DNA from: Desulfobacteraceae bacterium
Lineage (GTDB): Bacteria > Desulfobacterota > Desulfobacteria > Desulfobacterales > Desulfosarcinaceae
Reading direction: 5' to 3'
DNA length: 34,608 nt
Assembly (NCBI GenBank): GCA_024230435.1
Contig: JAAERL010001148.1
Coordinates: forward strand, 1-34,608
A program made the position numbers and the translations under genes. Positions within the stretch are counted from its first letter, which is position 1; every line of letters starts with the position of its first letter. Shown in pieces: positions 1,228 through 25,000 of the stretch. A model generated the notes under the pieces. The model worked only from the letters and a program-made list of their open reading frames with translations. It did no database searches and was not told where the DNA came from.

Positions 1228-1535
1228 GGAATATAATTCCTTTTCAATAGTGTTTATTGTTTCTGAAATTTTCTTAAATATTAGCCTAATATGAGCCTGA
1301 TATGAGCCTGATAATTTGTCGTTCAGCTCTAAGTTCATAACATTTGGCAACAAGCATGCCATGTGACATTAGTTTGCTCTACTGGTGTGCTATCAGCTTA
1401 TTTGGTTAATCGATAATGGCGGAAATATCGTAGACTTGTGTCAACTTTGTTGTAAGTTTATAGCAACTTTGTTGGCGCTGCTGTTTAAAATTATCCAGTG
1501 AGGATTCCCGGCACGACATGAAAAGGGCTTTGCCG
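1228..1535. other. Intergenic region with tandem short repeats
   Basis: No gene is seen. An 11-bp unit TATGAGCCTGA occurs twice in tandem near 1290-1312, preceded by a related TTAGCCTAA. The dyad CAAC-TTT-GTTG occurs at 1442-1452 and again at 1464-1474, so its copies are spaced 22 bp (two helical turns). These could be regulator sites for the ankyrin gene, but there is no independent support. Confidence 0.4.
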
Positions 1536-2727: not shown

Positions 2728-4107
2728 TCAATATTGTTTTGTTTCCAGCTTTTCGAGCCGATATCGCAGTGTCGGTCTGGTCAGGTTAAGCAAGCGGGCA
2801 GCCTTGGAGACATTGTTACCGGCAACTTTCATGGCATGGGTTACAATACGGTTTTCAAGATCCTCTATGTCAATTCCGTCATTGCTCAACAGAAAAGGTA
2901 CGATTTGATCTATAGCCATTTTGTCCAATTGGGCTTCAGGTGAATCGTTGAGTATGAGATGCTCGGGACGGATTTCATTTGCCTTAGCCAAAATCATGGC
3001 CCTTTCGATCACATTGCGCAATTCGCGAACATTGCCATTCCAGGGATGACGTTTCAGGCAGGCCATGGCGGTTTCTGAAATCCAAGGTGCTTTGCGCCCG
3101 AAGTTAAGGCTGAACTCTCTGACAAAAAAGGAGGCCAGTTCAGGAATGTCGTCCCGATGTTCACGAAGGGGGGGCAGATTTATAGGAAAAACATTAATTC
3201 GGTAGTAAAGGTCGCTTCTGAACAGTTTTTGCTCCACCATACTTTTCAGATTGCGGTTGGTTGCCGCGATAATACGCACATTGGCGGCAATAGGCCGATT
3301 GCCCCCCAGACGCTCGAAACGCCTGCCTTCTAATACCCTCAATAGCTTGGCCTGGACATCTATGCTCATGTCGCCGATTTCATCTAAAAAAAGCGTTCCT
3401 CCCGCGGCCGCCTCGAACTTGCCTTTATGCGGCCCATGAGCGCCGGTAAACGCTCCTTTTTCATATCCGAATAATTCGGCCTCCAGTAGTGTAGATGGAA
3501 TGGCCGCGCAGTTCACCGGCAAAAAAGGCCCGCCTGAACGCTCGCTGTTGTAATGCACCGCCCTGCTGATCAATTCTTTTCCGGTACCGCTTTCACCGGC
3601 AAGTAAAACCGTTGTGTCCGTGCGGGCAACCTGTCCGGCCAGCTCCAGCACTTTGCAAATGGGAGGCGAATGGCCGATGATATTATCAAAATTGTATTTG
3701 TTTTCTATTTCTTTTCTCAGGTAGCGCACCTGGGATGTTAACCGGCTGATCTTAAGGGCCTTTTTAACACAACCGATCAGATGATCTTCTTTAAAGGGTT
3801 TGGTTACATAGTCAAAAGCACCTTTCCGGATGGCGTTTACGGCATTATCGATAGACCCGAAAGCCGTGATCACAATTACCGGCAATTCAGGATCGCTTTG
3901 CTTGATATGCGCGAGAACTTCCATCCCGTTGGAATGTGGCAGCTTTATATCCGTTATGATTAATTCAAAAGAATCAGCATCAAATGTTTCAATAGCTTGA
4001 CGGCCATCTGCAGCCTCGACAAAATCAAGGGGCATATCACTTAACATCATTTTAATCACGGCCCTCATGCGGGCCTCATCTTCTACCAGTAAGACTTTTG
4101 CATTCAT
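2728..4107 (-). CDS. NtrC-family sigma-54-dependent response regulator
   Basis: A 459-residue three-domain activator. Residues 1-120 are a receiver with the acidic pocket VEDE and phospho-acceptor Asp53; Lys103 is the conserved switch lysine. Residues ~140-380 are the AAA+ domain with Walker A GESGTGKE (171-178), the sigma-54 contact loop GAFTGA (218-223) and Walker B TLFLDE (238-243). A Fis-type helix-turn-helix ends the protein (AGNNVSKAARLLNLTRPTLR). The intact GAFTGA loop means it should open sigma-54 promoters. It starts 10 bases after the sensor kinase gene, so the two are a cognate pair. Two sigma-54-type promoters at 7118-7132 and 7203-7218 are natural targets. Cytoplasmic. Length is normal for the family. 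Confidence 0.95.
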   Translation of the reverse strand: MNAKVLLVEDEARMRAVIKMMLSDMPLDFVEAADGRQAIETFDADSFELIITDIKLPHSNGMEVLAHIKQSDPELPVIVITAFGSIDNAVNAIRKGAFDYVTKPFKEDHLIGCVKKALKISRLTSQVRYLRKEIENKYNFDNIIGHSPPICKVLELAGQVARTDTTVLLAGESGTGKELISRAVHYNSERSGGPFLPVNCAAIPSTLLEAELFGYEKGAFTGAHGPHKGKFEAAAGGTLFLDEIGDMSIDVQAKLLRVLEGRRFERLGGNRPIAANVRIIAATNRNLKSMVEQKLFRSDLYYRINVFPINLPPLREHRDDIPELASFFVREFSLNFGRKAPWISETAMACLKRHPWNGNVRELRNVIERAMILAKANEIRPEHLILNDSPEAQLDKMAIDQIVPFLLSNDGIDIEDLENRIVTHAMKVAGNNVSKAARLLNLTRPTLRYRLEKLETKQY

Positions 4108-4117
4108 AAATTTACTT

Positions 4118-5962
4118 TCATTTCATACATGGAAAAGTCAGTATAAATGTCGTACCCTGTTCAATTTTACTATTAACCGCTATCTTGGCGCGGTGTATTT
4201 TCAACAACTGACGGACAATGGAAAGTCCAAGCCCGACGCCGTCGTCTCTTAAGCTTACAAACGGATCAAAAATCCGGTCCAGGTCTTTTGGACAAATACC
4301 TTTGCCGGTATCTGAAACGGTAATCTCCAATACACGCTCTTGCTCTGTGCTCAAATTGGACGATTTGGAGCCTGAATTCGGATTTGCGTTTTTGATATAC
4401 TTTGCCTTAATGGTTAATTGCCCGCCTGAGGGCATGGCCTGGGCGCCATTAAGAACGATATTCCAGAACACTTGCCTGATCTGATCTTTGTCGGCCAGGC
4501 AAAATCCTTTTTCATCCGTGATCTTTTTTCTTACGTCAATACCGCTTTGATTGAACTGCGATTCCGTGGCGGCCAAAATTTCTTCCAAAATCTGTATCGC
4601 ATCAATTGGTTTGAAAACCGGAGACGCCGGCTTGGCAAAGGCTAAAAACGAATTCAAGGTCTTGTTCAAGCGCTCGGTTTCATCAACGATGAAACGGGCG
4701 GCTTCTTCGCGCATCGATAGCGGCCGTTCGGAATTGGCCACGACCTGGGCCGATCCGAGTATCACCCCAAGGGGATTTTTGATTTCATGGGCGATACCGG
4801 CTGTCATTCGGCCTATTGCCGCAAGCTTTTCTTTTTCCGACAATTCAATGTAGGTTTGCTTGAGAGCCTTTTGACTCTGCTTTAAAGAAGCGGCCATTTG
4901 GTTGAACGAGTATGCAAGCGAATCGGCAATATCAAGACCGGTTGGATATACCTTATGATCCAGGTTTCCATCACTGATACGCTCAATACCCTGGCGCAAG
5001 GCATTTAACGGCTTCACGATGGTCAGGCTCAACAGGTAACTGAGCACGGAGCACAACACCATACCCGCCAATACCAGTGAAAGGGTCGTTTTTTTGATGT
5101 TCTGTATTTGAACCAAAAATTCAGTCATTGGTAAGGTAACGCCCACAGTCCAATCTCTGCCGGGGTAATCGGCGTAAGCCGTGAAAAAGTATTCTCCTTC
5201 AAAAGCGCTTAGCCCGAATTGTTTATTTGCCGCTTTCAGATCTCTCAGACAAGTGCTTAAAAGCTCTATATGCCCGGGGTCCCAGGTCTGCTGCACCAGG
5301 TCCGGATGGGCAATAACCCGCCCTTGACGGTTTTCGATGATATAGGCATATCCTTTGTTTTCAAAATGGATGTTTTGTAAAAAACGGGAAAAGGTAGACA
5401 GGTCGATATCTATGCCGCAAACACCCTGAAGCTTTCCCAAATTGTCATATATGGGAATCGATGCCGTAATTCCCGGATTTTGTGTAGATGCGTAAAGATA
5501 TACATCGGTCCAATGAGCAACTTCAGCCTTAGCAGCGCCTTTATACCACGGGCGGCTGCGCGGATCGAAGATTTTATGGATTTCAGGTTTCTGGGGCGGG
5601 ACCATGGTGAAGTTGCCTTTTTCGTCCCCCAAATAAATATTCACAAAGTCCGAATGATCTCCCCTGAGTAACTTAAAGTAGTGAATCAGGGCTTTTGTGT
5701 CTTCAATGTCAATTGTATTGTTTTGAATAAAAGCTTTGATCAATTTAGCGGTATCCATATGCTGGGAAAGAAACTGGCGGATGCGCTCGGCGATCTGGGA
5801 AGCCGTGCTGATCGAGTAATGCTGCATCTGTTTTTCCAACGCCTTGCAGCCCTGAATGTATGAAAAATAGCCCGAGCCCGGTATAAAAATAAAAATGATT
5901 AGCGCCAGGGCCAAAAATAGCCGGCTGCGAAAAGACTGACGCATGGCGGGAATCAATTTCAT
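4118..5962 (-). CDS. dCache sensor histidine kinase
   Basis: A 614-residue membrane sensor. An N-terminal membrane segment (LFLALALIIFIFIPG) is followed by a periplasmic domain of ~250 residues with the dCache signature FDPRSRPWY and a later GVCGIDIDL. A second membrane segment lies near residues 295-320 (TLSLVLAGMVLCSVLSYLL), then a HAMP linker, a HisKA domain (IAHEIKNPLG, phospho-His ~392) and a HATPase domain (N box GAQAMPSGG, G box DTGKGI, GLGLSIVRQL). ATG 5962 overlaps the TGA of the upstream gene as ATGA, which favours it over an in-frame ATG at 5977. The dCache fold typically binds amino acids, carboxylates or amines. The ligand is unknown; the divergent TRAP transporter suggests its substrate. 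It should phosphorylate the NtrC-type regulator encoded next. Confidence 0.93.
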   Translation of the reverse strand: MKLIPAMRQSFRSRLFLALALIIFIFIPGSGYFSYIQGCKALEKQMQHYSISTASQIAERIRQFLSQHMDTAKLIKAFIQNNTIDIEDTKALIHYFKLLRGDHSDFVNIYLGDEKGNFTMVPPQKPEIHKIFDPRSRPWYKGAAKAEVAHWTDVYLYASTQNPGITASIPIYDNLGKLQGVCGIDIDLSTFSRFLQNIHFENKGYAYIIENRQGRVIAHPDLVQQTWDPGHIELLSTCLRDLKAANKQFGLSAFEGEYFFTAYADYPGRDWTVGVTLPMTEFLVQIQNIKKTTLSLVLAGMVLCSVLSYLLSLTIVKPLNALRQGIERISDGNLDHKVYPTGLDIADSLAYSFNQMAASLKQSQKALKQTYIELSEKEKLAAIGRMTAGIAHEIKNPLGVILGSAQVVANSERPLSMREEAARFIVDETERLNKTLNSFLAFAKPASPVFKPIDAIQILEEILAATESQFNQSGIDVRKKITDEKGFCLADKDQIRQVFWNIVLNGAQAMPSGGQLTIKAKYIKNANPNSGSKSSNLSTEQERVLEITVSDTGKGICPKDLDRIFDPFVSLRDDGVGLGLSIVRQLLKIHRAKIAVNSKIEQGTTFILTFPCMK

Positions 5963-6879
5963 GGCTTTGTCCCGCAAGCGGCCGGACCAAGCGCTTTGTT
6001 TGCTCCAGGTTTATTTAAAACCGATGCGATATCGCTTTTTAGACAATGGCTGATTTTGTTTTCTTTGATTAGAATGTGTGCAAAAGGAGCCGCCTTGAGG
6101 GCCAATTTTTCGGTGTTAAGCAACTTGCGCACCGCATAGCCGATGGCCGGGCTGTTGCGATAGCCGTCCCATAGTCTTTTAAACGCCCGCCATCGCTTAC
6201 CGTCATCCTTGCAATGACGAATGATCTCAAGCAGCGCAATGCTACCCCAGGAATAATTTGGATTTTCATTAACCGCTGGCGTTTTAGTCTCGATTTGCGG
6301 CAAAACCAGGCTCACCCAGGGAACCGGCGGCTCGATATGCAAAAGAGTTTCGCCATAGTTGTTTGCAATAAAATTATAGTAAATCAGGCCCTCTTGCTTG
6401 CGGCCCAGCAAATCCGCGTATATCCAGCCCAGGTACCAGGCGGCTTTTGCGCATACGGCAGGCTGATTGGCATAAAGCTTGAGAATGTTACTCAATAGCG
6501 CAATGGATAGATCACAGTCTTTTTCGGTGGCTACTCGATAATCATCGCCCAGGGCAAGATAAGCCAATTCAAGGTGTGCTTCTGCGCGAATGGAAACGGG
6601 ATGGTCAAAATGTTCCAGCAGGACTTCGAAAGCCGCCCGTTTGGCCTCCAAATTGGGAAACCACGATTGGCAATAACGAAGTTGCTCTTCAGGCGTATTG
6701 AAAAGCTGAACTGAATGCCCCTTATGCTCCACAATTTTTGAGATTGAAGTACCTGCTGTTGCAACCGGCGCCAATACCGCCCATAAAAAAAAAACCGCAC
6801 CCGCCAAGGTAAGGGCCATAGCAAATATACCTGAGGGCCTACAGCCGGTTTGCTTAATTCGATTCTTCGTTGCTCTCAT
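5959..6879 (-). CDS. Secreted helical-repeat (TPR-like) protein of unknown function
   Basis: From ATG 6879 the product has 306 residues, with a basic N-terminus and a hydrophobic signal segment (IFAMALTLAGAVFFLWAVLAP) ending in VATAG. The rest is helical, with TPR/Sel1-like pieces such as AEAHLELAYLALGDDY and AWYLGWIYADLLGRK. It is probably periplasmic. The frame is open to a codon at 7233, which would add 118 residues. I reject that start because it buries the signal peptide and would put the palindrome and the minus-strand sigma-54 promoter inside the gene. The TGA overlaps the sensor kinase ATG, so the two are translationally coupled. An accessory role in sensing or ligand handling is inferred from position only. 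No ribosome-binding site is obvious before 6879. Confidence 0.7.
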   Translation of the reverse strand: MRATKNRIKQTGCRPSGIFAMALTLAGAVFFLWAVLAPVATAGTSISKIVEHKGHSVQLFNTPEEQLRYCQSWFPNLEAKRAAFEVLLEHFDHPVSIRAEAHLELAYLALGDDYRVATEKDCDLSIALLSNILKLYANQPAVCAKAAWYLGWIYADLLGRKQEGLIYYNFIANNYGETLLHIEPPVPWVSLVLPQIETKTPAVNENPNYSWGSIALLEIIRHCKDDGKRWRAFKRLWDGYRNSPAIGYAVRKLLNTEKLALKAAPFAHILIKENKISHCLKSDIASVLNKPGANKALGPAACGTKP

Positions 6880-6964
6880 ACTATTGCGCTCATTTTTTTT
6901 TAAGTCTGTTTTTGACCTGTTCTTTAGCCTGTTTTGCATCTGATCAATCGTCTTATAGGACAAA

Positions 6965-6998
6965 TTGATGAAATCATCAAATTTGATGATTTCATCAA
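6965..6998. promoter_or_regulatory. 34-bp perfect palindrome: two tandem 16-bp dyads, candidate activator site
   Basis: Two dyads of the form TTGATGA-N2-TCATCAA (6965-6980 and 6983-6998) are separated by AT, and together form one uninterrupted perfect 34-bp palindrome. Dyad centres are 18 bp apart. Paired dyads of this size are typical of NtrC-family enhancer sites. It lies about 230-260 bp upstream of the start expected from the rightward sigma-54 promoter, and about 110-140 bp downstream of that from the leftward one. Assigning it to the adjacent regulator is an inference. Confidence 0.6.
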
Positions 6999-7117
6999 AT
7001 CGGCCGTGATTCAAGCCAGCCAATCCGGCCCATTCTTTAATTACCTCTAAATAAAGCGATCCCGAGCAATTACAAGCGATATCCATCTTGACCGGCGCCT
7101 CAGATAGTATTCTTCTC

Positions 7118-7132
7118 GCAAAGAAAGTGCCA
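7118..7132 (-). promoter_or_regulatory. Sigma-54 promoter for the sensor/regulator operon
   Basis: Read on the minus strand the sequence is TGGCAC-TTTCT-TTGC, an exact match to the -24/-12 consensus (TGGCAC-N5-TTGC). Transcription should begin near 7106 and run into the TPR-like/sensor/regulator/truD operon with a leader of about 225 bases. Confidence 0.75.
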
Positions 7133-7202
7133 CAGTATGCGGCAAAATAAAAAAACAAGAAATTATTTATGTTCAGTGACTTATAACTTGTTTGACGTGC
7201 CG

Positions 7203-7218
7203 TGGCATAAGGATTGCA
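7203..7218 (+). promoter_or_regulatory. Sigma-54 promoter for the TRAP-TAXI operon
   Basis: TGGCAT-AAGGA-TTGCA matches the sigma-54 consensus with one change in the -24 box, and GG and GC are 12 bases apart as required. The start is expected near 7229, about 260 bases before the binding-protein gene. The leader would contain MITE copy B. Confidence 0.75.
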
Positions 7219-7289
7219 TTTTGGCTTCAACACCGGCGCAACCGGATAAAACTATTAACCCCCCGTTTCCGGCAGGGGTGAAACATTTT

Positions 7290-7468
7290 TTAAGGCGATT
7301 GGCGAAAAAGAATATACCAGATTGAGCTTCGATTTTTTTTTGTATTCAAGGCGCGCCAAAGTGTGCTGATCAGTTTGCATACTTAACGTATTCGCACCTT
7401 TGGCATAACGCACAAGACGGAAAAAAAGACATACAAGATGGTATATTCTTTAACTGCAAATCGCCTAA
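7290..7468 (+). mobile_element. MITE-like element, long copy B
   Basis: About 179 bp, very similar along its whole length to copy C at 8591-8770. The left end is slightly altered (TAAGGCGATT) and the right end is intact (AAATCGCCTAA). The interior has an inverted repeat, CGCCAAAG near 7343 and CTTTGGCA near 7399. It encodes no plausible protein. It sits in the 5' leader of the TAXI binding-protein gene and ends 22 bases before its ATG, just before the ribosome-binding site. Confidence 0.8.
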
Positions 7469-7489
7469 AACACAGAAAAGGAGACACGG

Positions 7490-8461
7490 ATGATGAAAAA
7501 AGGTCGTATTCTTACTGTATTTGCTATTTCACTCGTAGTGGCATTTGTTTTTTCAACCCCGGCCCTGGCAAGACCGGAGTTTTTCGCCATCGCCACCGGC
7601 GGCACTGGCGGCACCTACTACCCGCTTGGCGGCGTACTTGCCCAGGCCCTTTCCAAAAATGTTCCTAAGGTCATTGTAACCGCCCAGTCCGGAAACGCTT
7701 CGGTGGCCAACTGCAACCTGATTAAAGAGCATGAAATCGAGTCGGCTTTTGTACAAAACAACGTGGCTTTTGCAGCTTATAAAGGGCGGGCTCAGTTTAA
7801 AGGCAATCCAATTCAAAACATCCGCGGTATCGCTTCATTGTATCCCGAGACGATACAGATCGTCGCCCGGGCTGACGCCGGTGTTAAAACCACCGATGAT
7901 ATGAAAGGCAAACGTCTGGTGCCCGGCGACCGCGGCAGCGGAGCCGAAGTGGATTGTAAAAGTATTCTTAAAAGTCACGGCCTGAACTATAAAGATTTTA
8001 AAAGCGTGGATTGGCTTAGCTTTTCCGGAGCGTCCCAAAGGCTCAAGGACAAACAGGCAGACCTGGCTTTTATCACTGCCGGATGGCCCACCGCCTCGAT
8101 TACTGAATTAGCCACTCAAACCGGCGTCAATCTGGTATCCATAAAAGAAGATCATGTCAAAAAGCTGATAAAGATGTTCCCTTTTTACTCTAAAATAGTC
8201 ATTCCGGCCAATACTTACCCAGGCGTGGGAAAAGATACCACCACCATTACCACCATGGCCCAATGGATCGTTGATGAAAAAGTATCTGAAAAGACGGTTT
8301 ACCTTTTGACTAAGGCACTGTGGGAAGGCGGTTCGGCAACAATGGCCAATGCCCATGCCAAAGGCAAGGAAGTAACCTTGGAAACGGCGCTCAATGGTAT
8401 GGCGATCCCTTTGCATCCGGGCGCGGAAAAATACTATCGTGAAAAAGGCGTTTTAAAATAA
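7490..8461 (+). CDS. TAXI-family TRAP transporter solute-binding protein
   Basis: A 323-residue periplasmic binding protein. The signal peptide covers residues 1-27 (ILTVFAISLVVAFVFSTPALA). The mature start FFAIATGGTGGTYYPLGG is the hallmark of the TAXI (TRAP-associated extracytoplasmic immunogenic) family. QSGNASVANCNLI and the late TKALWEGG also fit. It captures a small organic acid or amino acid in the periplasm and passes it to the fused permease encoded at 9443. AAAGGAG lies 6 bases before ATG 7490; ATG 7493 is an alternative. The gene follows a sigma-54 promoter divergent to a dCache sensor/NtrC pair, and direct-repeat MITE copies flank it. The substrate cannot be read from the sequence. 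Confidence 0.95.
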   Translation: MMKKGRILTVFAISLVVAFVFSTPALARPEFFAIATGGTGGTYYPLGGVLAQALSKNVPKVIVTAQSGNASVANCNLIKEHEIESAFVQNNVAFAAYKGRAQFKGNPIQNIRGIASLYPETIQIVARADAGVKTTDDMKGKRLVPGDRGSGAEVDCKSILKSHGLNYKDFKSVDWLSFSGASQRLKDKQADLAFITAGWPTASITELATQTGVNLVSIKEDHVKKLIKMFPFYSKIVIPANTYPGVGKDTTTITTMAQWIVDEKVSEKTVYLLTKALWEGGSATMANAHAKGKEVTLETALNGMAIPLHPGAEKYYREKGVLK

Positions 8462-8590
8462 ATCATTAGGAATAGGAATTAAATTTAGGGCTCGATGATC
8501 AAATTTGGTATTAACGTCAGGGCGTCGTTAAAAAATTATGATCATCGGGCCATAAATTCTCTGATTACAGTGAAAAAAAATATCAACACT
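8462..8590. other. Intergenic spacer after the TAXI gene
   Basis: No gene is seen. ATGATCA.. near 8494 and TGATCAT near 8540 form a loose dyad; there is no T-run. The segment continues into MITE copy C. Confidence 0.4.
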
Positions 8591-8770
8591 TTAGGCGATT
8601 GGCGCAAAAGAATATACCAGATTGAGCTTCGATTTTTATTCGTCTTCAAGGCCCGCCAAAGTTTTGCTGATCAGTTTGCATACTTTACGTATTCGCATCT
8701 TTGGCATAACGCACAAGACGGGAAAAAAGACATACAAGATGGTATATTCTTTAACTGCAGATCGTTTTAG
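8591..8770 (+). mobile_element. MITE-like element, long copy C
   Basis: About 180 bp in the same orientation as copy B and nearly identical inside (ATACCAGATTGAGCTTCG, CTGATCAGTTTGCATAC and ACAAGATGGTATATTC are shared). The left end TTAGGCGATT is intact. The right end has decayed (GATCGTTTTAG instead of AATCGCCTAA). It lies between the TAXI gene and the DUF1850 gene. Confidence 0.8.
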
Positions 8771-8800
8771 CATGGAGTAATAAGGATTGTTGCATCTCCA

Positions 8801-9412
8801 ATGGTATTTAAATTACACAGGCCAGCTTTAAAAAAAATGCCGGTAAAAAAACGTACCGTTTTATTTGTGTTTATCTTATTGGCTGCAACGGCGCTGATAC
8901 CTGTGCGGGTATTGAGCATAACGGCAGTAAAAAAAGAAAGCGTTGTATTTCTGCGGAAAATGCGGGCAGGGCAAAAAATCGCTTATCACAACATTCATTC
9001 TGTGGAGCTTTCACCGGTTTGGGAATACTTCCGTATCAGCGGCAATGACAATATGATTCTTTATGAAACACGCTTTCAATCTTCCAATGTGGGTTTGCCC
9101 TATGCGGCTTTCGGTCAGGAAAAATTTATCTGCGAACCCGATGGTTACCGGATAAGCAATATGCACCGGGTTATCCCGGAACTTCTAATCTGGGCAAATA
9201 ATCGTTATGACAACCGTTTGGAGATAGACAACTATAGCTTAAGGTTATGTGATTTGGCCGGCGATACCCTTTTGCGCATCAAGGCGGACACTTGGCCTGC
9301 CTATAAATATGTTATCTTCAAGATTATTACACTCAATTCATTACGCTTGCAGCAGGCTGCAACCGGCAACGCCCCGTCTTCCGGCGATAGCAGCCAAGAA
9401 TCTGCAAGCTGA
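8801..9412 (+). CDS. DUF1850 protein of the TRAP-TAXI operon
   Basis: A 203-residue protein with one N-terminal hydrophobic segment (TVLFVFILLAATALIPVRV), then a small extracytoplasmic domain. IAYHNIHSVELSPVWEYF followed by GLPYAAFG matches the DUF1850 pattern of a His-Ser motif and a Gly-Leu-Pro motif. DUF1850 genes usually lie between the TAXI binding protein and the fused permease, as here. The molecular role is unknown; it may be an accessory subunit. ATG 8801 has AAGGA rather far upstream. ATG 8837 would still keep the hydrophobic segment, so the start is uncertain. The gap to the permease gene is 30 bases. Confidence 0.82.
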   Translation: MVFKLHRPALKKMPVKKRTVLFVFILLAATALIPVRVLSITAVKKESVVFLRKMRAGQKIAYHNIHSVELSPVWEYFRISGNDNMILYETRFQSSNVGLPYAAFGQEKFICEPDGYRISNMHRVIPELLIWANNRYDNRLEIDNYSLRLCDLAGDTLLRIKADTWPAYKYVIFKIITLNSLRLQQAATGNAPSSGDSSQESAS

Positions 9413-9442: not shown

Positions 9443-12169
9443 ATGCAAGAAAAACAGATACCCCTTAACGAGAACGAAGAGATCAAAAAATACGATCCTG
9501 AAATGCGCTTTCGGCAAATCAGCGGATTTAGTTTGAAGCTCGTTTTTGTGATGACCCTGATTCTCTCCCTATTTCATATTTACACAGCCGGATTCGGTGT
9601 GTTGCAGGAGTGGCGCCACCGGGCTTTTCATTTGGCATTCGTTTTACCTCTGGTTTTTATGTTTTATACCATCCGCAAAAAAAACACAGAGGGAAAAAAG
9701 CATTTTATCCATGATATCATTTATGCACTCATTGGCAGCACCCTGCTTGCCGTCATGTTTCATGAAATATTCAAACTGGAAACAGGTGCTATCCTTGCAA
9801 CGGGTATTGCGGCCTTTTGTTTTGTTCTCTATTTTAAGCGCAGAGAATTTTTAAGCCCTAAACTGACGTTAACCGTGGACCTGCCAATTTTCACGATTAT
9901 GGCCGGATCGCTTGTCTGGATTATACTCTGGGGTATTAAAAACATTGACTACGGCGTTGCCTTCCAGGATCTGAATGCAACCATGTTTTTTTGGAGTGTC
10001 TTTTTATTCGGTACCCTGGCGGCCCTGATTTTTATTTTTATCATTCAGTGGATTTATACCATCTTTGCCGCTTTTAACCGAAAAAGTGTGAACTATGTCA
10101 ACGACAACATTCCCTACTTCGATGTTTTTTTTGCCGTGCTGGCCGCAATTGCATCCATTTATATCTTTTTAGAATTCAACAGCCTGGTATTCCGTGCGGG
10201 GCTGCCCGTCAAGGCTGACCTGGTGGTGGGCTGCTTTGCCATTTTACTGGTTCTGGAAGGCGCCCGGCGAAGCGTTGGACCGCCCCTGCCGCTGATTGCC
10301 TTCATTGTGTTGATCAACTGCTACCTGGGGCCCTATTTTTTTGACATTCCGGGACTTAGCTTTTTCGCCCATCGAGGTTACTCTGTTCACCGGATTATCG
10401 AGCATATGTACTTGGGAACCGAAGGCATCTTTGGTATTCCCCTGGGAGTTGTAGCAACCTTTGTTTTTCATTTTGTACTTTTCGGAATTTTTATTTCCAA
10501 AACCGGATTGGGCGGGCTTTTCATGGATCTGGCCATGGCTGTCGCCGGAGGAACCGTGGGCGGACCCGCCAAAGTCTCGGTGGTTTCCAGCGGCTTTTTA
10601 GGATCAATTAACGGAAGCTCGATTGCCAATACCGTGACTACCGGCGCTTTTACCATACCGCTGATGAAGCGGGTGGGATACAAACCCGTGTTTGCCGGAG
10701 CCGTGGAGGCGGCAGCATCCACCGGCGGTCAATTGATGCCGCCCATTATGGGGGCCTCGGCCTTTATCATGGCCGAATTTTTAGGCATACCTTATATTAA
10801 AATCGCCGCCTGTGCCGTGATTCCATCGTTTCTGCACTTTTTCGCCGTGGGCTGGATGGTTCACCTGGAAGCGAAAAAGCAGGGCCTGTCCGGTCTGCCC
10901 AAGGATCAACTGCCAAAAGTAATGGCCGTTTTAAAGGAAAAAGGTCTGCTCGTATTTCCCCTGGTTATCATCGTATTCTTGCTGATTTCCGGCGCCAGCC
11001 CCTTCCTGGCGGCCTACTGGGGCATTTTTTACGCGGTGGCCATTGGACAAATTCACCGCAGAACCTACACCATGCTTGTGGCCATGTTCTTGTCAGCGCC
11101 TTTTGCAACGTTATGGATCAACCCGTTGGCAGGCTCGTCTGGCTGGGCCGCAGCCTGGCTGATCTTCATGGCGGCAGGTCTGATGATTACCTTCAAAATC
11201 TCAGATCGCAAGGATTGGCTCATAGGATTGATTCCCAGCGCCGGCCTGTTGATAGCCGCCCTGGCGAAACTGGGTCCTGCAGAGTGTGCTATGGCGGGAC
11301 TTTTACTGGTCATTTCCATCGGAGTATTTTACGAAGAGAGTACAATGCGCGTGCCCGCCATCATGGATACGTTGGAATGGGGCGCCCGTAACGCCCTGGC
11401 CATCGGCGCCGCCTGTGCGTGTGTAGGATTTATCGTGGGCGCTACTACCCTGACAGGACTTGGTTTAAAATTCGCCACTGCCGTTATCGAACTGGCCGGA
11501 AATGTCGCCGCGTTCATTGACGTGGTGGATTTTACCAATACACTGGGCCTTGAGCCGTTAACGCTTTTCTTTACACTGGCCTTTACTGCTGTGGCCTGCT
11601 TTTTATTGGGAATGGGTATTCCTACAACCGCCCAGTATATCATCGCATCAATGATTGCCGCCCCGGCCCTGACCCAATGGGGAATCTCTCCTCTGGTCTC
11701 GCATATGTTCGTGCTTTTTTATGCCGTACTTGCCGATGTTACTCCTCCGGTGGCCCTGGCGGGATATGCCGCCGCCGGAATATCGGGAGGCGACCCGTTT
11801 AAAACGGGCTTTATGTCTTTTGCCCTATCGTCGGCAAAACTCTATGTTCCGTTCGCATTCGTTTATTCACCGATTATTCTGTGGATGCCCTGGATTTTAG
11901 ATCCCAATGTAAGCTTTAACTTACTAGAATTTCTTGTCGTGTTTAGCGGTGTTGTGCTGGGAGTTATGGCCCTGGGGGCGACCATCATCGGCTATCTCAG
12001 TGATAAGTCAACTCCATTGGAGCGCCTTGGCACGACCGCAGCCACCTTGCTGTTGCTGATACACGGTTTTACAACATCGCTAATTGGATTTGGCATCTTA
12101 GCGGGCGTCTATTTTGTGCAATACTCACGGCGCAAAACGCTTGAATTGAGTGTACAGGCCGCGGCTTAG
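9443..12169 (+). CDS. TRAP transporter 4TM/12TM fused permease
   Basis: A 908-residue polytopic membrane protein with about 18-20 hydrophobic segments. The N-terminal ~270 residues correspond to the small (DctQ-like) subunit with extra helices. The middle is the DctM-like transport core, with GGTVGGPAKVSVVSSGFLG, SIANTVTTGAF and EAAASTGGQLMPPIMGA. A second repeat half has LLGMGIPTTAQYI and LADVTPPVALAGYAAAGI. These are characteristic of TAXI-partner permeases driven by an ion gradient. GAAAGG precedes ATG 9443. It is longer than many relatives because of the extended N- and C-terminal membrane regions. The TAG stop lies inside a TTAGGCGATT motif shared with the MITE ends. Confidence 0.95.
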   Translation: MQEKQIPLNENEEIKKYDPEMRFRQISGFSLKLVFVMTLILSLFHIYTAGFGVLQEWRHRAFHLAFVLPLVFMFYTIRKKNTEGKKHFIHDIIYALIGSTLLAVMFHEIFKLETGAILATGIAAFCFVLYFKRREFLSPKLTLTVDLPIFTIMAGSLVWIILWGIKNIDYGVAFQDLNATMFFWSVFLFGTLAALIFIFIIQWIYTIFAAFNRKSVNYVNDNIPYFDVFFAVLAAIASIYIFLEFNSLVFRAGLPVKADLVVGCFAILLVLEGARRSVGPPLPLIAFIVLINCYLGPYFFDIPGLSFFAHRGYSVHRIIEHMYLGTEGIFGIPLGVVATFVFHFVLFGIFISKTGLGGLFMDLAMAVAGGTVGGPAKVSVVSSGFLGSINGSSIANTVTTGAFTIPLMKRVGYKPVFAGAVEAAASTGGQLMPPIMGASAFIMAEFLGIPYIKIAACAVIPSFLHFFAVGWMVHLEAKKQGLSGLPKDQLPKVMAVLKEKGLLVFPLVIIVFLLISGASPFLAAYWGIFYAVAIGQIHRRTYTMLVAMFLSAPFATLWINPLAGSSGWAAAWLIFMAAGLMITFKISDRKDWLIGLIPSAGLLIAALAKLGPAECAMAGLLLVISIGVFYEESTMRVPAIMDTLEWGARNALAIGAACACVGFIVGATTLTGLGLKFATAVIELAGNVAAFIDVVDFTNTLGLEPLTLFFTLAFTAVACFLLGMGIPTTAQYIIASMIAAPALTQWGISPLVSHMFVLFYAVLADVTPPVALAGYAAAGISGGDPFKTGFMSFALSSAKLYVPFAFVYSPIILWMPWILDPNVSFNLLEFLVVFSGVVLGVMALGATIIGYLSDKSTPLERLGTTAATLLLLIHGFTTSLIGFGILAGVYFVQYSRRKTLELSVQAAA

Positions 12170-12190
12170 GCGATTTTACCATTCGCCTTA
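12166..12190. repeat. Short inverted repeat resembling collapsed MITE ends
   Basis: TTAGGCGATT (12166-12175) is followed within five bases by ATTCGCCTTA (12181-12190), close to the inverted ends of the MITE-like family with no interior. The permease stop TAG is inside it. It may be a remnant of the family or a simple hairpin at the gene end. Confidence 0.4.
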
Positions 12191-12232: not shown

Positions 12233-12265
12233 AATGCCTCTTGCGCCAAGCGTGCAAGAGGCATT
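12233..12265 (-). terminator. Intrinsic terminator facing left
   Basis: A perfect 12-bp stem, AATGCCTCTTGC (12233-12244) and GCAAGAGGCATT (12254-12265), has a 9-base loop. On the minus strand the hairpin is followed by a long U tract (complement of the A-run 12223-12234). On the plus strand only ACTATTT follows. It should stop leftward, antisense transcription entering the permease gene, and may act weakly rightward. Confidence 0.65.
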
Positions 12266-12313
12266 ACTATTTCAAACGCTAGAGAGTTCCAAATCCGTCA
12301 TTTGAAATAGTAA
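12264..12313 (+). promoter_or_regulatory. Leader inverted repeat, 13-bp arms
   Basis: TTACTATTTCAAA (12264-12276) and TTTGAAATAGTAA (12301-12313) are perfectly complementary with a 24-base spacer. The left arm overlaps the end of the preceding hairpin by two bases. The structure lies in the leader of the transaminase gene. Confidence 0.55.
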
Positions 12314-12371: not shown

Positions 12372-13214
12372 ATGCCTGAGCTTGCCTATATCAATGGAAC
12401 CATTTGCGCTATTGAAGAAGCCAAAGTGCCGATAGAAGATCGGGGTTACCAATTCGGTGATGCAGTTTATGAATTTCTGGCCACGTATAACGGCAAAATT
12501 TTTGCCCTGGATGACCATTTTTCCCGACTTGAAAGATCCTTAAGAGAACTTAAATTTCCTACAGTTGATCTGACTCAACTGAAATCAGCCAGCCTGGAAT
12601 TACTTAAGCGGTCCGAAATTTCAAGCGCAGGGATTTATATTCAAATTTCACGAGGTGTTGCCCCGCGAGACCATAAATTCCCGGTAAAGGCGCAACCGCA
12701 ACTTGTCATGACCATCCGTGAGCTTGCTCAAATCCCTCAAGCTGTGCGCACCAACGGAGCCAGAGTGATCAGCATGGAAGATGCCCGCTGGGGCCGTTGC
12801 GATATTAAAAGTGTGCAATTGCTTGCCAATGTCCTGGCCAAGCAAAAAGCCATTGAAGCAGACGCTGACGAAGCCATTCTTATCAGCCCTGCCGGAAACG
12901 TTCGGGAAGCAGCCTCATCAAACGTGTTTATCGCTATAAATGGCGAGTTGCACACCCATCCATTGACCCGGCAAATACTGCCGGGCATAACCCGTAAGAT
13001 TACCATCGAAATTTGTAAGGAAGAAGGGATAAAGGTTAATGAAAACCTGTTTACAAAAGAGCAAATGCTGTCCGCCGATGAAGTCTTCTTAACCGGAACC
13101 GTAACCGAAGTGCTGCCGGTTTGCCAAATTGACGGCAAGCTTATCAACGACGGCAGGCCCGGCCCAATTGCTGAAAAGCTTTATAAACGTTTGTGCAGGC
13201 GAACCGGCCAATAA
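12372..13214 (+). CDS. dat: D-amino-acid transaminase (class IV, PLP)
   Basis: A 280-residue fold-type IV aminotransferase. It starts with YINGTICAIEEAKVPIEDRGYQFGDAVYE. WGRCDIKSVQLLANVLAKQ holds the PLP lysine at about residue 146. The block EAASSNVFI and the late TGTVTEVLPV are also present. The WxRCDIKS-LLxNVLAKQ form is that of D-amino-acid transaminases rather than branched-chain ones, which usually carry a longer N-terminus. It interconverts D-amino acids and 2-oxo acids, for example D-Ala/2-oxoglutarate to pyruvate/D-Glu. Cytoplasmic. The gene follows the TRAP operon by about 200 bases and has its own structured leader. A branched-chain or aminodeoxychorismate lyase activity is less likely but not excluded. 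Confidence 0.85.
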   Translation: MPELAYINGTICAIEEAKVPIEDRGYQFGDAVYEFLATYNGKIFALDDHFSRLERSLRELKFPTVDLTQLKSASLELLKRSEISSAGIYIQISRGVAPRDHKFPVKAQPQLVMTIRELAQIPQAVRTNGARVISMEDARWGRCDIKSVQLLANVLAKQKAIEADADEAILISPAGNVREAASSNVFIAINGELHTHPLTRQILPGITRKITIEICKEEGIKVNENLFTKEQMLSADEVFLTGTVTEVLPVCQIDGKLINDGRPGPIAEKLYKRLCRRTGQ

Positions 13215-19022: not shown

Positions 19023-22000
19023 TTGAAAACGAATCCAAATCAGGCGCAACAACCTTCGATACCGGCATATTTCAAGACCCTAAAGATCCAACTTATGAAA
19101 TACCAAGACGACAAACTGCCGAACATCCCCGGCTATCGGATTAGCGCACGGATACACGAGAGCTCCAACTCGCTGGTCTATCGGGGCGTGCGGGACAAGG
19201 ACGGGCTGCCGGTCGTTCTCAAGGTCCTGAAACAAAGTCATCCGTCGTTAGAAGAGCTGACAAACTACCGCCAGGAATATGATATCATGGCTGGCCTGGC
19301 GGATATAAAGGGTGTTGCCGGGGTGTTAAGCCTCGAAAAATACATAAACACATTGATGATATGCCTGGAAGATTTTGGGGGTGAGTCCCTGAGACACTGG
19401 ATCAATGAACGCGGGATGAGTCTGGCCGGGCAACTGGAATTTGCAATCCGCGCCGCTGAGATTCTGGGGCAAATTCACAGGCGCAATATCATTCACAAGG
19501 ACATCACTTCCGACAACCTGGTTTTGAACCGGACTACCGGACAACTCAAGTTCATAGACTTCGGGATCGCCACGCGGCTGCCCAGGGAGCAACCCACTCT
19601 GATAGATCCTGATGCGCCAAAGGGGTCCCTGATGTACATGTCCCCGGAACAGACCGGGCGCATGAATCGCACTTTGGACTATCGCACCGACTTGTATTCT
19701 TTCGGTGTGACATTGTACGAACTGTTCACTGGGAAAAGGCTCTTTGAATCCGAAGACCCCATGGAACTGGTGCATTCTCATATTGCCGTAAAACCGGTTG
19801 CCCCCTGCAAGGTCAATCCCGAACTACCGGCCTCAATTTCCAACATTATACTCAAATTGCTGGAAAAGGCAGCCGAGGAGCGCTACCAGAGCGCCTGGGG
19901 CATCAGAGCCGATCTGGAAAAATGCCTGGCCGACTTGAACAAAAGCAGCACACCGGCGCCGTTTGCCCTTGCCCAAGAAGACATCCCGGATCGTTTACGG
20001 ATTCCGGAAAAACTTTACGGCCGCGAAAAAGAGACCGGCGCCCTGCTGACCGCATTTGAGCGTGTGGCCCACAGCGGCGATGCCCAGATCATAATGGTCT
20101 CCGGCTATTCAGGTATCGGCAAGTCCTTGCTTGTTAAAGAGGTGTCCCACACGCTTGCCCCAAAAATAGGATATTTTATCTACGGCAAGTTCGACCTGTT
20201 CCAGCGCAATATTCCATACAGCGGTCTGGTCAGAGCTTTTAGAGAACTGGTCCGGCAATTGTTGACAGAAAAGGACGCAAAGCTTTCGCACTGGCGGGAA
20301 AAACTGCTCACCGCCTTAGGGCCCAACGGCCGGATTATCATTGATGTGATCGCCGAAATCGAACTGATTATTGGACCCCAGCCTGAAGTGCCAAGTCTAA
20401 GGCCAACTGAATCTGAAAATCGCTTTAATTTAGTATTTCAAAACTTTATGCAGGTGTTTTGCCGGAAAGAACACCCCCTGGTCATTTTTCTCGATGACCT
20501 GCAGTGGGCTGATTCAGCAACACTCAGACTGCTTGAACACGCGATAACTGATCAAGACAACATTGGTCTGCTTCTGATCGGGGCCTTTCGGGACAGCGAG
20601 ATCGACCCGTCCCATCCCCTGGCTAAAACACTTAACAGTATGCACAAGGCAAATATCCCGGTTAACCTGATTCATCTAAAACCTCTGGAGCACGAACATG
20701 TCAACCAACTGATTGCCGATAGCCTGCATCAAAACAGGGAAACGGTCCGTCCCCTTACGGATCTGGTGATACGCAAGACAGGCGGAAATCCGTTTTTTAT
20801 AAACCGGTTTCTTCATACGTTATACGATGAAGATCTGCTAATATTCGAAATGAACTCTAAAGGGCAATACGGATGGCAATGGGACATTGACCGGATCAAG
20901 GCTGTTAATATCACAGACAATGTAGTGGAGCTGATGATCGGCAAGCTGAAAAAACTGCCTGAATCCGCACAGAAGACCTTGTGCCTGGCAGCTTGTGCGG
21001 GAAGCCTTTTTGATCTGGAAACCTTGTCTGCCATTTATAAAAAAACGGCTGCCGATACCTTTAAGGATTTGAAACCCGCTATGATCGAGGAGCTGATCCT
21101 GCCTCTGTCAAAGCTGGAAATTAACGATGACGTCCCCCAATCTCCGGCTATGATCGTCAGGCGCATGCGTTTTTTGCATGACCGGGTCCGGCAGGCGGCC
21201 TACGCTATAATTCCAGAAGACCAAAAACAGACGGCTCACCAGCAGATCGGCCGGTTGATGTTGCAAAATATTGCGCCGGTTGATCGGGATGAAAAGATAT
21301 TTGATATTGTCAACCAGCTTAACTTGGGAATCGGCCTGATTAAAACTGATGCTGAACGCAGCGAGCTAGCCTCGCTGAATTTGACAGCGGGCAAAAAAGC
21401 AAGATCCTCGATAGCCTATGCACCCGCGTTTGAATACTTAAAAAATGCTATCTCTCTTTTGGAAAAGGACTGCTGGGAAAAGCAGTATCAATTGACTTTG
21501 GATATTCATGTGGAAGCTGCCAAGGCAGCGTACCTGAACTCGCAGTTCGAGCAGATGGAGACCATTGCACGGTCTGTAGAGGATAAAAGTAAGACCCTGC
21601 TTGACGAAGTTATAATTCATAATGTCCGCATTATGTCCTATATTGCCCAGAACAGGTTGCAGGATGTCATCAAAATCTGTCTGTCCATGCTGAAACAATT
21701 GGGTGTGCGAATACCGGAAAAACCAAATAAATTTTACATATTATTACAGCTTCTGAAAACAAAGCTGATAGTGGGGGCTAAAAAGGAAAAGAATTTTATC
21801 GATCTTCCTGAAATGACTGACCCGGTCAGGCTCGCATCAATGCGGCTTTTGGTGAGACTTCTTAGTTGTGCTTATTATGTCACACCTGAGCTGCTCCCGC
21901 TGGTTGCGTTTCATATGACCAATTTATCGATCAAACATGGCAATTCCGCCTATTCCTCGTTTGCCTATGCTATTTACGGAGTGATTCTTAGCAATGTGAC

Positions 22001-25000
22001 CGGAGAGATTAATTCCGGGCAGCGGTTCGGCAGGATCGCGTTAACGCTTATGGAGCGATTTAAAGCCGGAGAAATCGAAATAAGGACAATAGTGGCTATT
22101 AACTCCGGCATCAGTATTTTTACAAAGCATCTCAGACAAACCTTGAAATCTCTGCAAAAAAACTATCAAAGCGCTCTGGAAGCCGGAGATCATGAATATG
22201 CCGCTCTTTGTGCGCACATGTACTGCTATAATTCGTTCTACGCAGGCAAAGAAATGACAGCTCTCGAACATGAGATTGCTCAATACGATACGGACATAAG
22301 CCGTTTAGGCCAAAAAACCTATGTAAATTACAATAAAATATTTCACCAGACTGTGTTGAACCTTTTAGGCGAAAGTGATGATCCGTGTGAACTTGCCGGC
22401 AAGGTGTACGATGAACGGATCATGCTGCCTTTGCATGAAAAAGCAAATGACCAGAATGCAATCTGGACAATATACAATACTAAAATGATACTTTGGTATC
22501 TGTTCGGAGAGTATTCAAAAGCTTTTGACGCTACGGAGCTGGCTGCAAAATTATCAAAAGACAACATGGTTACGGCTATTTATTTTATATTTCATTTTTA
22601 TGATTCCCTTATCCGGCTTGCCAATTATAGCTACGCAGAAAAATCAAATCTTAAAAAAACGAGTCTAAAAAAGACCCTGCGAAAAGTGGATGCGAACCAG
22701 AAAAAAATAAAAAAATGGGCGCCTCACGCTCCCATGAATTATCTGCACAGATGGAATTTGGTCGAAGCCGAACGCGCACGGGTGCTTGATCATTATGAAA
22801 AAGCCGAGAACTATTACAATCAGGCCATTGCCCTGGCAAGCGAACATGAATACACCAATGACGAAGCACTGGCCCTGGAACTGGCAGGCCGGTTTTATCT
22901 TGAAAACAACCGTCCCAGGATCGCAAAAGCCTATCTTAGGGACGCACATTATACCTATCAAATATGGGGGGCCAATGCCAAAGCCCGGCATTTGAAAAAT
23001 GAATTTCCCTTAATACAGGATACCCTTATACCCTGGCATGACACGAAAACGGTAAGCATTAGTACATCAAACTCTGCTTTGCAGCGCATGGACCTGAACA
23101 GTGTCATAAAAGCAGCCCAAACCATGTCCGGAGAAATCGTTCTGGACCGGTTGTTATCAAAAATGATGAGAATTGTGATTCAAAGTGCGGGCGCTCAAAA
23201 AGGGTATCTTCTTTTGCAAAAGCAGAGGCAATGGCTCATTTACGCCGAATGTGACCTTAATAAAGACGATGTGCAGGTCCTCCAATTGGTTGACGTTGTA
23301 AAAAGCGGCGACCTGTGCGCCTCCATCGTCCAGTATGTGGCCCGTACGCAGCAAACCGTTGTGCTCGATGACGCTGTCAACCAGGGGGATTTTAGCGGAG
23401 AAGCATACATTCGCAAGCGCGGCATCAGGTCTTTATTATGCATGCCGTTGCTTCATAAAGGCGAGTTGAACAGTATTTTGTACTTAGAGAACAACTTGAC
23501 CGCCCGGGCGTTTACACCCAAACGGATTCAACTTCTCAAAGCGCTGGCTTCCCAGGCCGCCATTTCATTAGAAAACGCGCTGTTGTATGAAAACCTGGAA
23601 GAAAAAGTCGTAGAGCGTACAAAGCAGTTGGAAAAGCAGAATGTAAAATTGGAGATTCAAGCCGAGGAGCTACGTCAGTCGCGGCAGGAAGCGCAAGCCG
23701 CCAATAAAACAAAGAGCGATTTTCTGGCCAATATGTCCCACGAAATCCGCACCCCCATGAACGCGGTAATAGGTCTGACCAATGTCGTGCTCAAATCTGA
23801 GCTGACGGTCAAACAACGCGATTATCTGGAAAAAGTGGGGATCGCTTCGAAAGGCCTGTTGAATGTGATCAACGACATTCTGGATTTTTCTAAAGTAGAA
23901 GCCAACCAACTGGTACTGGAGTGCATGCCTTTCGATCTGGGCCATGTGATGGAACAACTAACCGATCTGTTCAGCAACCGGGTGGCAGACAAGGACCTGG
24001 AGATGATTGTCACCGTGGCTCCGCATACGCCTGGAAAGTTTTTCGGCGATGCCGGCAGGCTGGCCCAGATACTGACCAACCTGGTGGCCAATGCCATCAA
24101 GTTCACCGAAAGAGGTGAAATCGTCGTAGCTGTGGCGTTGGCCACCGGGCAGCCGGTGGATCGGACGCGCCTTGAATTCACGGTCAGCGACACGGGTATC
24201 GGCATTGATCCCAATGCGATACCCGGGCTGTTCTCCCCTTTTACCCAAGTCGAAACTCATTTGGCACGGCAACATGAGGGCACCGGCCTCGGGCTGGCCA
24301 TATGCCGCAAACTTACCGAGCTGATGGGCGGCCGGATCTGGCTCGAAAGCACACCCGGCAAAGGCAGCAAGTTTTGCTTCACGGTTAACCTGGAGCAGCA
24401 AAAAGCCGAACAAGCCCCCATTCCCATGCTGGCGGACCTGCGGGGGCTCAGGGCCCTGGTTGTGGATGACAGCGCCACGTCCCGGCAGATGCTGGTGGAA
24501 ATACTGGAATCTTTCAACTTTGAGGTTTCGGCGGTGGACAGCGGCCCAAAGGCCCTGACAGCCCTTAAACAAAAGAGCGCCACCGGCCAGACCTGCCAAC
24601 TGGTGATGCTGGATTGGAAAATGCCCGGCATGAGCGGTATTGAAACCGCCCAGCGCATCCGCGAAATGAGGTTGACGGCAGCCGAGCACGCCCATCAGCC
24701 CGGATTCTCAAAACCGGAACCCTTGATCATCATCATGGTCACCGCCTACGGCCAGTTGCTGGTGCAGGAGCAAACCGGTCTGGCAAATGTGGATCGCCTG
24801 ATGCTCAAGCCAATCAAGCCTTCCGCGTTCTTCGACATCCTGATTGAGTTGTTCAATCAGACAAAGGCCGCTGGTCCGCCTCTGGTCAAACGCGCCGAGT
24901 ACAACCAGATGCTGGCCGGCCGGCGATTGCTGGTGGTCGAAGACAATGCGCTCAACCGCGATGTGGCCTTGGCCCTTCTCAGTGAGATGGGCGCCGTGGT

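Follow-up and report, generated by a model that had tools for sequence, protein, structure and literature searches.

A divergent pair of sigma-54-type promoters probably links a dCache kinase/NtrC-type regulator operon to a TAXI-TRAP importer in a Desulfobacteraceae bacterium

The closest described systems include the AauS/AauR-RpoN-AatJQMP and DctB/DctD-RpoN-DctPQM systems of Pseudomonas, both of the DctBD type (PMC7962211). In the sigma-54 regulons of D. vulgaris, EBP genes lie beside or divergent from their targets and the regulons are mostly small; a few operators lie downstream of the promoter, at 40-70 bp (PMC4641369). An association between TPR proteins and TRAP transporters is described for TatT/TatP of Treponema, the TPR-protein-associated TRAP transporter or TPAT, in a 2018 review whose section on TAXI-TRAP transporters, headed ‘the neglected group’, gives few substrates (PMC5812351).

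The window analysed here is a stretch of 34,608 nucleotides from a Desulfobacteraceae bacterium and contains two divergent operons:

2728..4107, minus strand: NtrC-type response regulator with receiver, AAA+ domain with GAFTGA and Fis-type HTH (Pfam Response_reg, Sigma54_activat, HTH_8)
4118..5977, minus strand: dCache_1-HAMP-HisKA-HATPase sensor kinase (Pfam; amino-acid motif positions)
5959..6879, minus strand: exported member of the TPR family, encoded at the head of the regulator operon (ortholog alignment, TPR_6, model)
7490..8461, plus strand: TAXI solute-binding protein, SBP (TIGR02122, 344 bits, cut-off 84)
8801..9412, plus strand: DUF1850 protein (PF08905, E 7e-16)
9443..12169, plus strand: fused TRAP permease (TIGR02123, 652 bits, cut-off 321)
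12236..12266, no strand assigned: terminator-like hairpin 3′ of the permease (by eye from the sequence, unscored)

An earlier note, made from the sequence alone, had read this gene content in the same way, and the profile searches bore it out for the GAFTGA-bearing NtrC-type regulator, the dCache kinase, the TAXI SBP, the DUF1850 protein and the fused TRAP permease. The regulator has the NtrC/DctD-type architecture of receiver, GAFTGA AAA+ domain and Fis-type HTH, and GAFTGA is also present in all 15 listed orthologs. The transporter combines a TAXI SBP, whose nearest solved structures were 1us4/1us5, with a fused permease, both above their TIGR cut-offs, as in TAXI-TRAP transporters. To judge from the hairpin at 12236-12266, the aminotransferase gene at 12372 may form a unit of its own. 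No Rfam family matched the window at gathering thresholds. A very long ORF (2311 aa) was seen at 19023-25958.

Two candidate promoters lie between the operons:

7118..7132, minus strand: -24/-12 sigma-54-type promoter towards TPR-HK-RR (TGGCACTTTCTTTGC, TGGCAC-N5-TTGC)
7203..7218, plus strand: -24/-12 sigma-54-type promoter towards the TAXI-TRAP operon (TGGCATAAGGATTGCA, TGGCAT-N5-TTGCA)

On re-reading the sequence, both sites were present where the earlier note had placed them, with the required GG-to-GC spacing. The leftward site matched 10 of 11 consensus positions (base 7117 included) and the rightward site all 11 (consensus TGGCAYN5TTGCW); from these positions, transcripts are predicted to start at about 7106 and 7229, respectively. 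Single sites in the window were at chance level, TGGCAYN5TTGC with up to one mismatch giving 9 matches against 8.2 expected; exact TGGCN7TTGC gave 6 against 2.8, and 6 was reached in 4 of 100 shuffles. Across the genome (6.13 Mb), in which one rpoN gene exceeded its cut-off, the exact pattern was enriched, with 41+44 = 85 matches against 4+11 = 15 in the reversed control. The sites at 7118 and 7203 were the only pair less than 100 bp apart among these 85 (by listing). Since a single site is unremarkable and the pair is unique in the genome, we turned to a comparison across relatives. Elsewhere in the window, a site at 1347-1361 (minus strand) falls at the start of an ankyrin-repeat-like ORF (1-1362, by eye). 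Its sequence, TGGCATGCTTGTTGC, recurs at seven places in the genome site listing, and looks like a leader common to a gene family rather than a promoter.

The named relatives of the host are mostly sulfate reducers. Orthologous loci were sought with the TPR protein, so that the search covers TPR-bearing loci and the frequency of HK-RR pairs without a TPR gene lies outside its reach. Ninety-seven relatives were searched, from which two matches (G012, G022) were dropped from the counts; G012 also served as one of 14 non-triad control genomes. Among 389 genomes of the order there were 20 matches, 15 of them strong (window included), and the five weak partial matches were dropped before counting. 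The window was the only match at E <= 1e-10 among 395 genomes of the phylum, a sample that contained none of the known triad genomes. A scan of named genomes found nothing with the single TPR protein as query; with the TPR alignment it returned 16 loci, 13 already in hand and three new. The named hosts were Desulfobacula, Desulfosarcina, Desulfobacteraceae, Desulfobacterales, one ‘Deltaproteobacteria bacterium’ and one Desulfobulbaceae.

In total, the TPR-HK-NtrC triad was located at 17 orthologous loci besides the window (about 18 genomes altogether). The TPR gene was followed by HK and RR genes in 15 of these, and the contigs of the other two stop just inside HK. A TAXI protein was encoded near the triad in 10/17 loci; at locus L089 an apparent TAXI start is interrupted by the contig end (by eye), and in genome G248 the TAXI gene sits on a different contig from the triad. 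An enoyl-CoA hydratase (ECH) gene was found at 9/17 loci, accompanied in eight of the nine by a gene for an ADP-forming acyl-CoA synthetase (ACD), and an M20 peptidase gene stood immediately before TPR in four (L092, partial; L098, L099 and L109). The window has neither ECH/ACD genes nor an M20 peptidase gene. The description of the circuit as self-contained in the earlier note holds for the window but not for the nine relatives in which an ECH gene, mostly with ACD, belongs to the locus. The regulator most similar to that of the window (68.7% identity) belongs to a triad in genome G068 (L039), where the operator described below, the TAXI gene and the rightward promoter were all absent from the stretch read.

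Several further observations concern these neighbourhoods. A second TAXI-like binding protein is encoded near the triad at L091 (10914-11885, TIGR02122 over cut-off), without a permease of its own, and at L037 (2381-3379, by similarity); such proteins may have a signalling role. The region 9538-10482 of L096, as oriented, is the same locus as 7920-8861 of L103. The opening residues of the TPR frame in L096 look, by eye, like the N-terminus of the M20 peptidase encoded before TPR at other loci, as though the M20 gene had been deleted, and tblastn at E <= 1e-3 reported no M20 remnant there. The window’s own genome encodes an acyl-CoA synthetase of 65% identity away from the circuit (G000:C21:40991-43111, L124), preceded by an enoyl-CoA-hydratase-like ORF. 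Upstream of that pair, neither the operator (up to two mismatches) nor a sigma-54 site was present in the stretch read.

Promoter and operator counts were made on 16 loci (8683 bp), several of them closely related so that the counts are not independent events, with L092 (contig ending inside the M20 gene, without a divergent gap) and L115 (truncated TPR) excluded. Sigma-54 sites matching at least 10/11 positions numbered 23, against a mean of 0.37 and a maximum of 3 in 500 dinucleotide shuffles. The earlier note had held that absence of the promoter elements from orthologous loci would speak against the circuit, and they are present: the rightward promoter, leading to a TAXI or an ECH-ACD operon, is kept in 15/16 loci, and the leftward one, leading to TPR-HK-RR, reaches 10/11 in 7/16. 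An eighth leftward site, in L039, was left uncounted because it lies beyond a 143-aa ORF. By these counts both elements are conserved, the leftward one more weakly.

The earlier note had overlooked a paired motif, TTGATGAWATSATCAA at 6965-6998, which is a probable enhancer:

6965..6980, plus strand: putative regulator operator (UAS), copy 1 (TTGATGAAATCATCAA)
6983..6998, minus strand: second copy of the putative operator, 18 bp from the first, with which it forms an inverted repeat

L037 and L038 have the same 16-mer in their gaps. The window and these two loci supplied a first-form consensus, TTGATGAAATSATCAA; once further loci had been seen, one position was relaxed to W, giving TTGATGAWATSATCAA. 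With up to two mismatches, the operator was found 22 times in the 16 loci, against a mean of 0.086 and a maximum of 2 in shuffles, and 15 of the 22 copies belong to the 13 loci outside the first derivation. It was present in the regulatory gap of 11/16 loci. In L091, L093 and L097 it is found instead in the gap that precedes SBP, and in G248 (L090) on another contig, which leaves L039 as the only locus without it. Further operator and promoter sets lie between ACD and SBP in L091, L093, L096 and L097. Copies were frequently paired, 18 bp apart (19 in L037). Among promoters with an operator in their gap, the nearest copy lay 41-55 or 122-135 bp before the rightward -24 element in 14/15 cases. 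The window is the exception, with 204 bp between operator and rightward promoter and no promoter-proximal copy. Operator and promoter of the same type also precede the ECH/ACD pair in relatives; the gaps of four pre-ECH promoters (L090, L091, L093 and L097) had no operator.

Beyond the loci themselves, exact operators were found in 11/14 triad genomes against 1/14 non-triad genomes, two sets unmatched in base composition because all 14 controls came from the window’s family and most triad genomes did not. Eleven of the 14 distinct exact places in triad genomes were in regulatory gaps, spread over 10 of the 14 genomes, and the remaining three, like the single non-triad one, were intragenic; exact operators in regulatory gaps thus occurred in 10/14 triad and 0/14 non-triad genomes. 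One of them, at G248:C21, was an unsought genome-wide match lying between acyl-CoA synthetase and TAXI SBP genes and preceding a sigma-54 site of 10/11. The off-locus exact operators (G384:C81, G023:C129, G088:C201 and G019) were all intragenic. That at G023:C129:12544 (L131) lies in a kinase gene adjoining another NtrC-type regulator (39% identity), and is the only one of them near even a weak sigma-54-like site (9/11, 216 bp away); we took it as probable background. A wider regulon in the window’s genome was considered and rejected, the first-form operator being exact at this locus only. The widened form added one exact place, C303:2968, which is intragenic, and none of five one-mismatch places (L062-L066), C303:2968 included, had a sigma-54 site of at least 9/11 at operator distance. 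The putative operator co-occurs with the triad and is conserved with it, and as a shared motif it connects the regulator with the promoter of the transporter.

The sensor domain of the kinase was closest, among solved structures, to that of the amino-acid receptor PctA. The amino-acid dCache motif comprises, in PctA numbering, an aromatic residue at 121, R126, W128, Y129, Y144 and D173 (PMC10104139, PMC11245519), and the window kinase has F137, R142, W144, Y145, Y160 and D190 at these positions. The motif was retained in 16/16 kinases (the window and all 15 orthologs checked), with F at 121; the L095 and L109 kinases, interrupted by contig ends, were excluded from this count. At position 146 all 16 have Y or F in place of the D of PctA. 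We also compared the purine and amine dCache motifs and rejected them, R126 and D173 fitting the amino-acid motif better. Judging by these residues, signal and cargo would most likely be an amino acid or a closely related compound.

We infer the following scheme, to which we assign a probability of roughly 0.77. The dCache domain of the kinase would bind an extracellular ligand, such as an amino acid or something closely related, and the kinase would then phosphorylate the NtrC-type regulator. The regulator would assemble on the paired operator TTGATGAWATSATCAA at 6965-6998 and, by DNA looping, open sigma-54 polymerase at 7203, switching on the TAXI-TRAP importer. The leftward promoter at 7118-7132 would probably provide positive autoregulation, from an enhancer that here lies downstream of it. 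The wiring of regulator to transporter, as the earlier note had proposed it, is well supported by the comparison, given the rightward promoter in 15/16 loci and the common operator. Its claim of autoregulation stood in part: a leftward site is kept at a minority of the loci, and in the window and L037 the operator is downstream of that site.

The alternative that survives best keeps the rightward promoter and operator as real and has no positive autoregulation of the regulator operon, the leftward site being weak or silent. A live form of this alternative is negative autoregulation, in which the regulator, bound in the leader of the left operon, blocks or limits transcription. That the window and L037 have their operator 3′ of the leftward promoter agrees with it, as does the lack of a leftward site at 10/11 in 9/16 loci, L039 discounted. 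However, eight leftward sites (L039 included) were counted where chance predicts about half of 0.37, the shuffle mean for both strands, and in L109 the operators are upstream of both promoters. Downstream EBP sites are also described for some D. vulgaris promoters, though at 40-70 bp (PMC4641369). We regard the absence of positive autoregulation as the less probable, though live, reading.

The leader of the transporter operon contains an element that the earlier note had also overlooked, present twice in the window:

7288..7472, no strand assigned: 185-bp palindromic MITE-like repeat inside the transporter leader (sequence, alignment, genome counts)
8589..8772, no strand assigned: second MITE-like copy, between SBP and DUF1850 (sequence, alignment)

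The repeat has the ends AGGCGATT...AATCGCCT and is flanked by TA. Its 22-base core has 146 matches in the genome at up to one mismatch, against 0 in the reversed control, and diverged copies were found in 4/29 other genomes of the family. Remnants were noted by eye near 1537-1596 and 12166-12190, the latter overlapping the permease stop codon. Folded as RNA, 7288-7472 forms a hairpin of about -61 kcal/mol (leader z -5.9), and on this folding prediction the repeat could dampen some parts of the transporter mRNA or stabilise them. It could also have uncoupled the importer, transcription of SBP starting inside or after the repeat or being cut off by the hairpin, with the upstream promoter a relic. 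The size of the repeat, its stable hairpin, its end 17 bp before the SBP start codon and the atypical operator spacing of the window are in keeping with such a loss. Both promoters and both operator copies are nevertheless still near-consensus, and a consensus scan found no sigma-70-like sites in the leader (weak evidence), so that we hold uncoupling to be unlikely.

It is more improbable still that the inverted repeat at 6965-6998 acts as a leader RNA hairpin of the left operon (an attenuator or terminator) and not as a DNA operator. A scan did flag a terminator-like minus-strand site of 15 pairs there, but in orthologs the 16-mer can also be single or repeated in tandem on one strand at 18-bp spacing, and it recurs in ACD-to-SBP gaps at set distances before a sigma-54 promoter. 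Finally, although single sites are at expectation in the window, we rejected a chance origin of the paired sigma-54 sites as scarcely credible, given the uniqueness of the pair in the genome, the 23 sites against 0.37 expected in orthologous gaps and the set operator distances.

The exported protein encoded ahead of the kinase had been called TPR-like in the earlier note, and this description was upheld. The window protein on its own had no Pfam match; TPR_6 was matched at E <= 1 by 11/16 family members (best 2.2e-8), and AlphaFold predicts a helical solenoid of TPR-like form (pLDDT 82.6). Its start codon at 6879 agrees with the ortholog alignment. A lipobox-like Cys is present in 14 aligned orthologs and missing from the window copy (by eye). 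The TPR profile found nothing credible among solved structures, and the fold search returned generic TPR proteins (best Foldseek E 5.6e-3; top VIA rows tied at Z ~13). TatT gave no sequence match and was not among the fold matches listed. In the window and the orthologs, the TPR gene precedes HK on the HK/RR strand, i.e. outside the TRAP operon. Since it belongs to the sensor operon, we do not claim membership of the TPAT group. The protein is a conserved, probably periplasmic partner. That it is a membrane-anchored third component, physically coupling the TAXI protein and the dCache kinase or presenting ligand, is a more speculative suggestion that we consider rather doubtful. If true, it would make this a three-part sigma-54 sensing system with amino-acid-type input, of which we found none described.

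The component types are already known; the module with its operator TTGATGAWATSATCAA was not found described in the literature searched, subscription papers being outside its scope. The locus offers a handle on a TAXI importer. The sensor motif predicts a ligand class, the 16-bp operator finds target promoters genome-wide and the adjoining acyl-CoA and M20 peptidase genes hint at a catabolic route. The substrate and regulon of such an importer thereby become directly testable.

In comparison with known systems, the likeness to TPAT is the genetic linkage of an exported TPR (lipo)protein to a TRAP importer, as that system is presented in PMC5812351; here, however, the TPR gene is in the kinase operon and the SBP is of the TAXI type. 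The sensor shares its motif positions with the dCache_1AA sensors of the PctA type (PMC10104139, PMC11245519). PctA is a chemoreceptor, whereas the sensor here is a histidine kinase with F at 121 and Y or F at 146. The regulons of D. vulgaris resemble the locus in having EBP genes beside or divergent from target operons, although the downstream operator of the window lies farther from its promoter than the 40-70 bp given there (PMC4641369). D. vulgaris belongs to a different bacterial group, and the words TAXI and TRAP are missing from the main text of that paper. With the DctBD-type systems, as set out in PMC7962211, the locus shares a kinase with periplasmic input, an NtrC-type regulator, a sigma-54 promoter for uptake (of amino acids or dicarboxylates) and an inverted-repeat operator, and the proposed course of activation would be the one described for them. 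It differs in its operator (TTGATGAWATSATCAA instead of TTCGG-N4-CCGAA), in its importer, which is a TRAP transporter of the TAXI type, in the exported TPR gene before the kinase, in the divergent sigma-54 pair and in the acyl-CoA genes that accompany 9/17 of its relatives.
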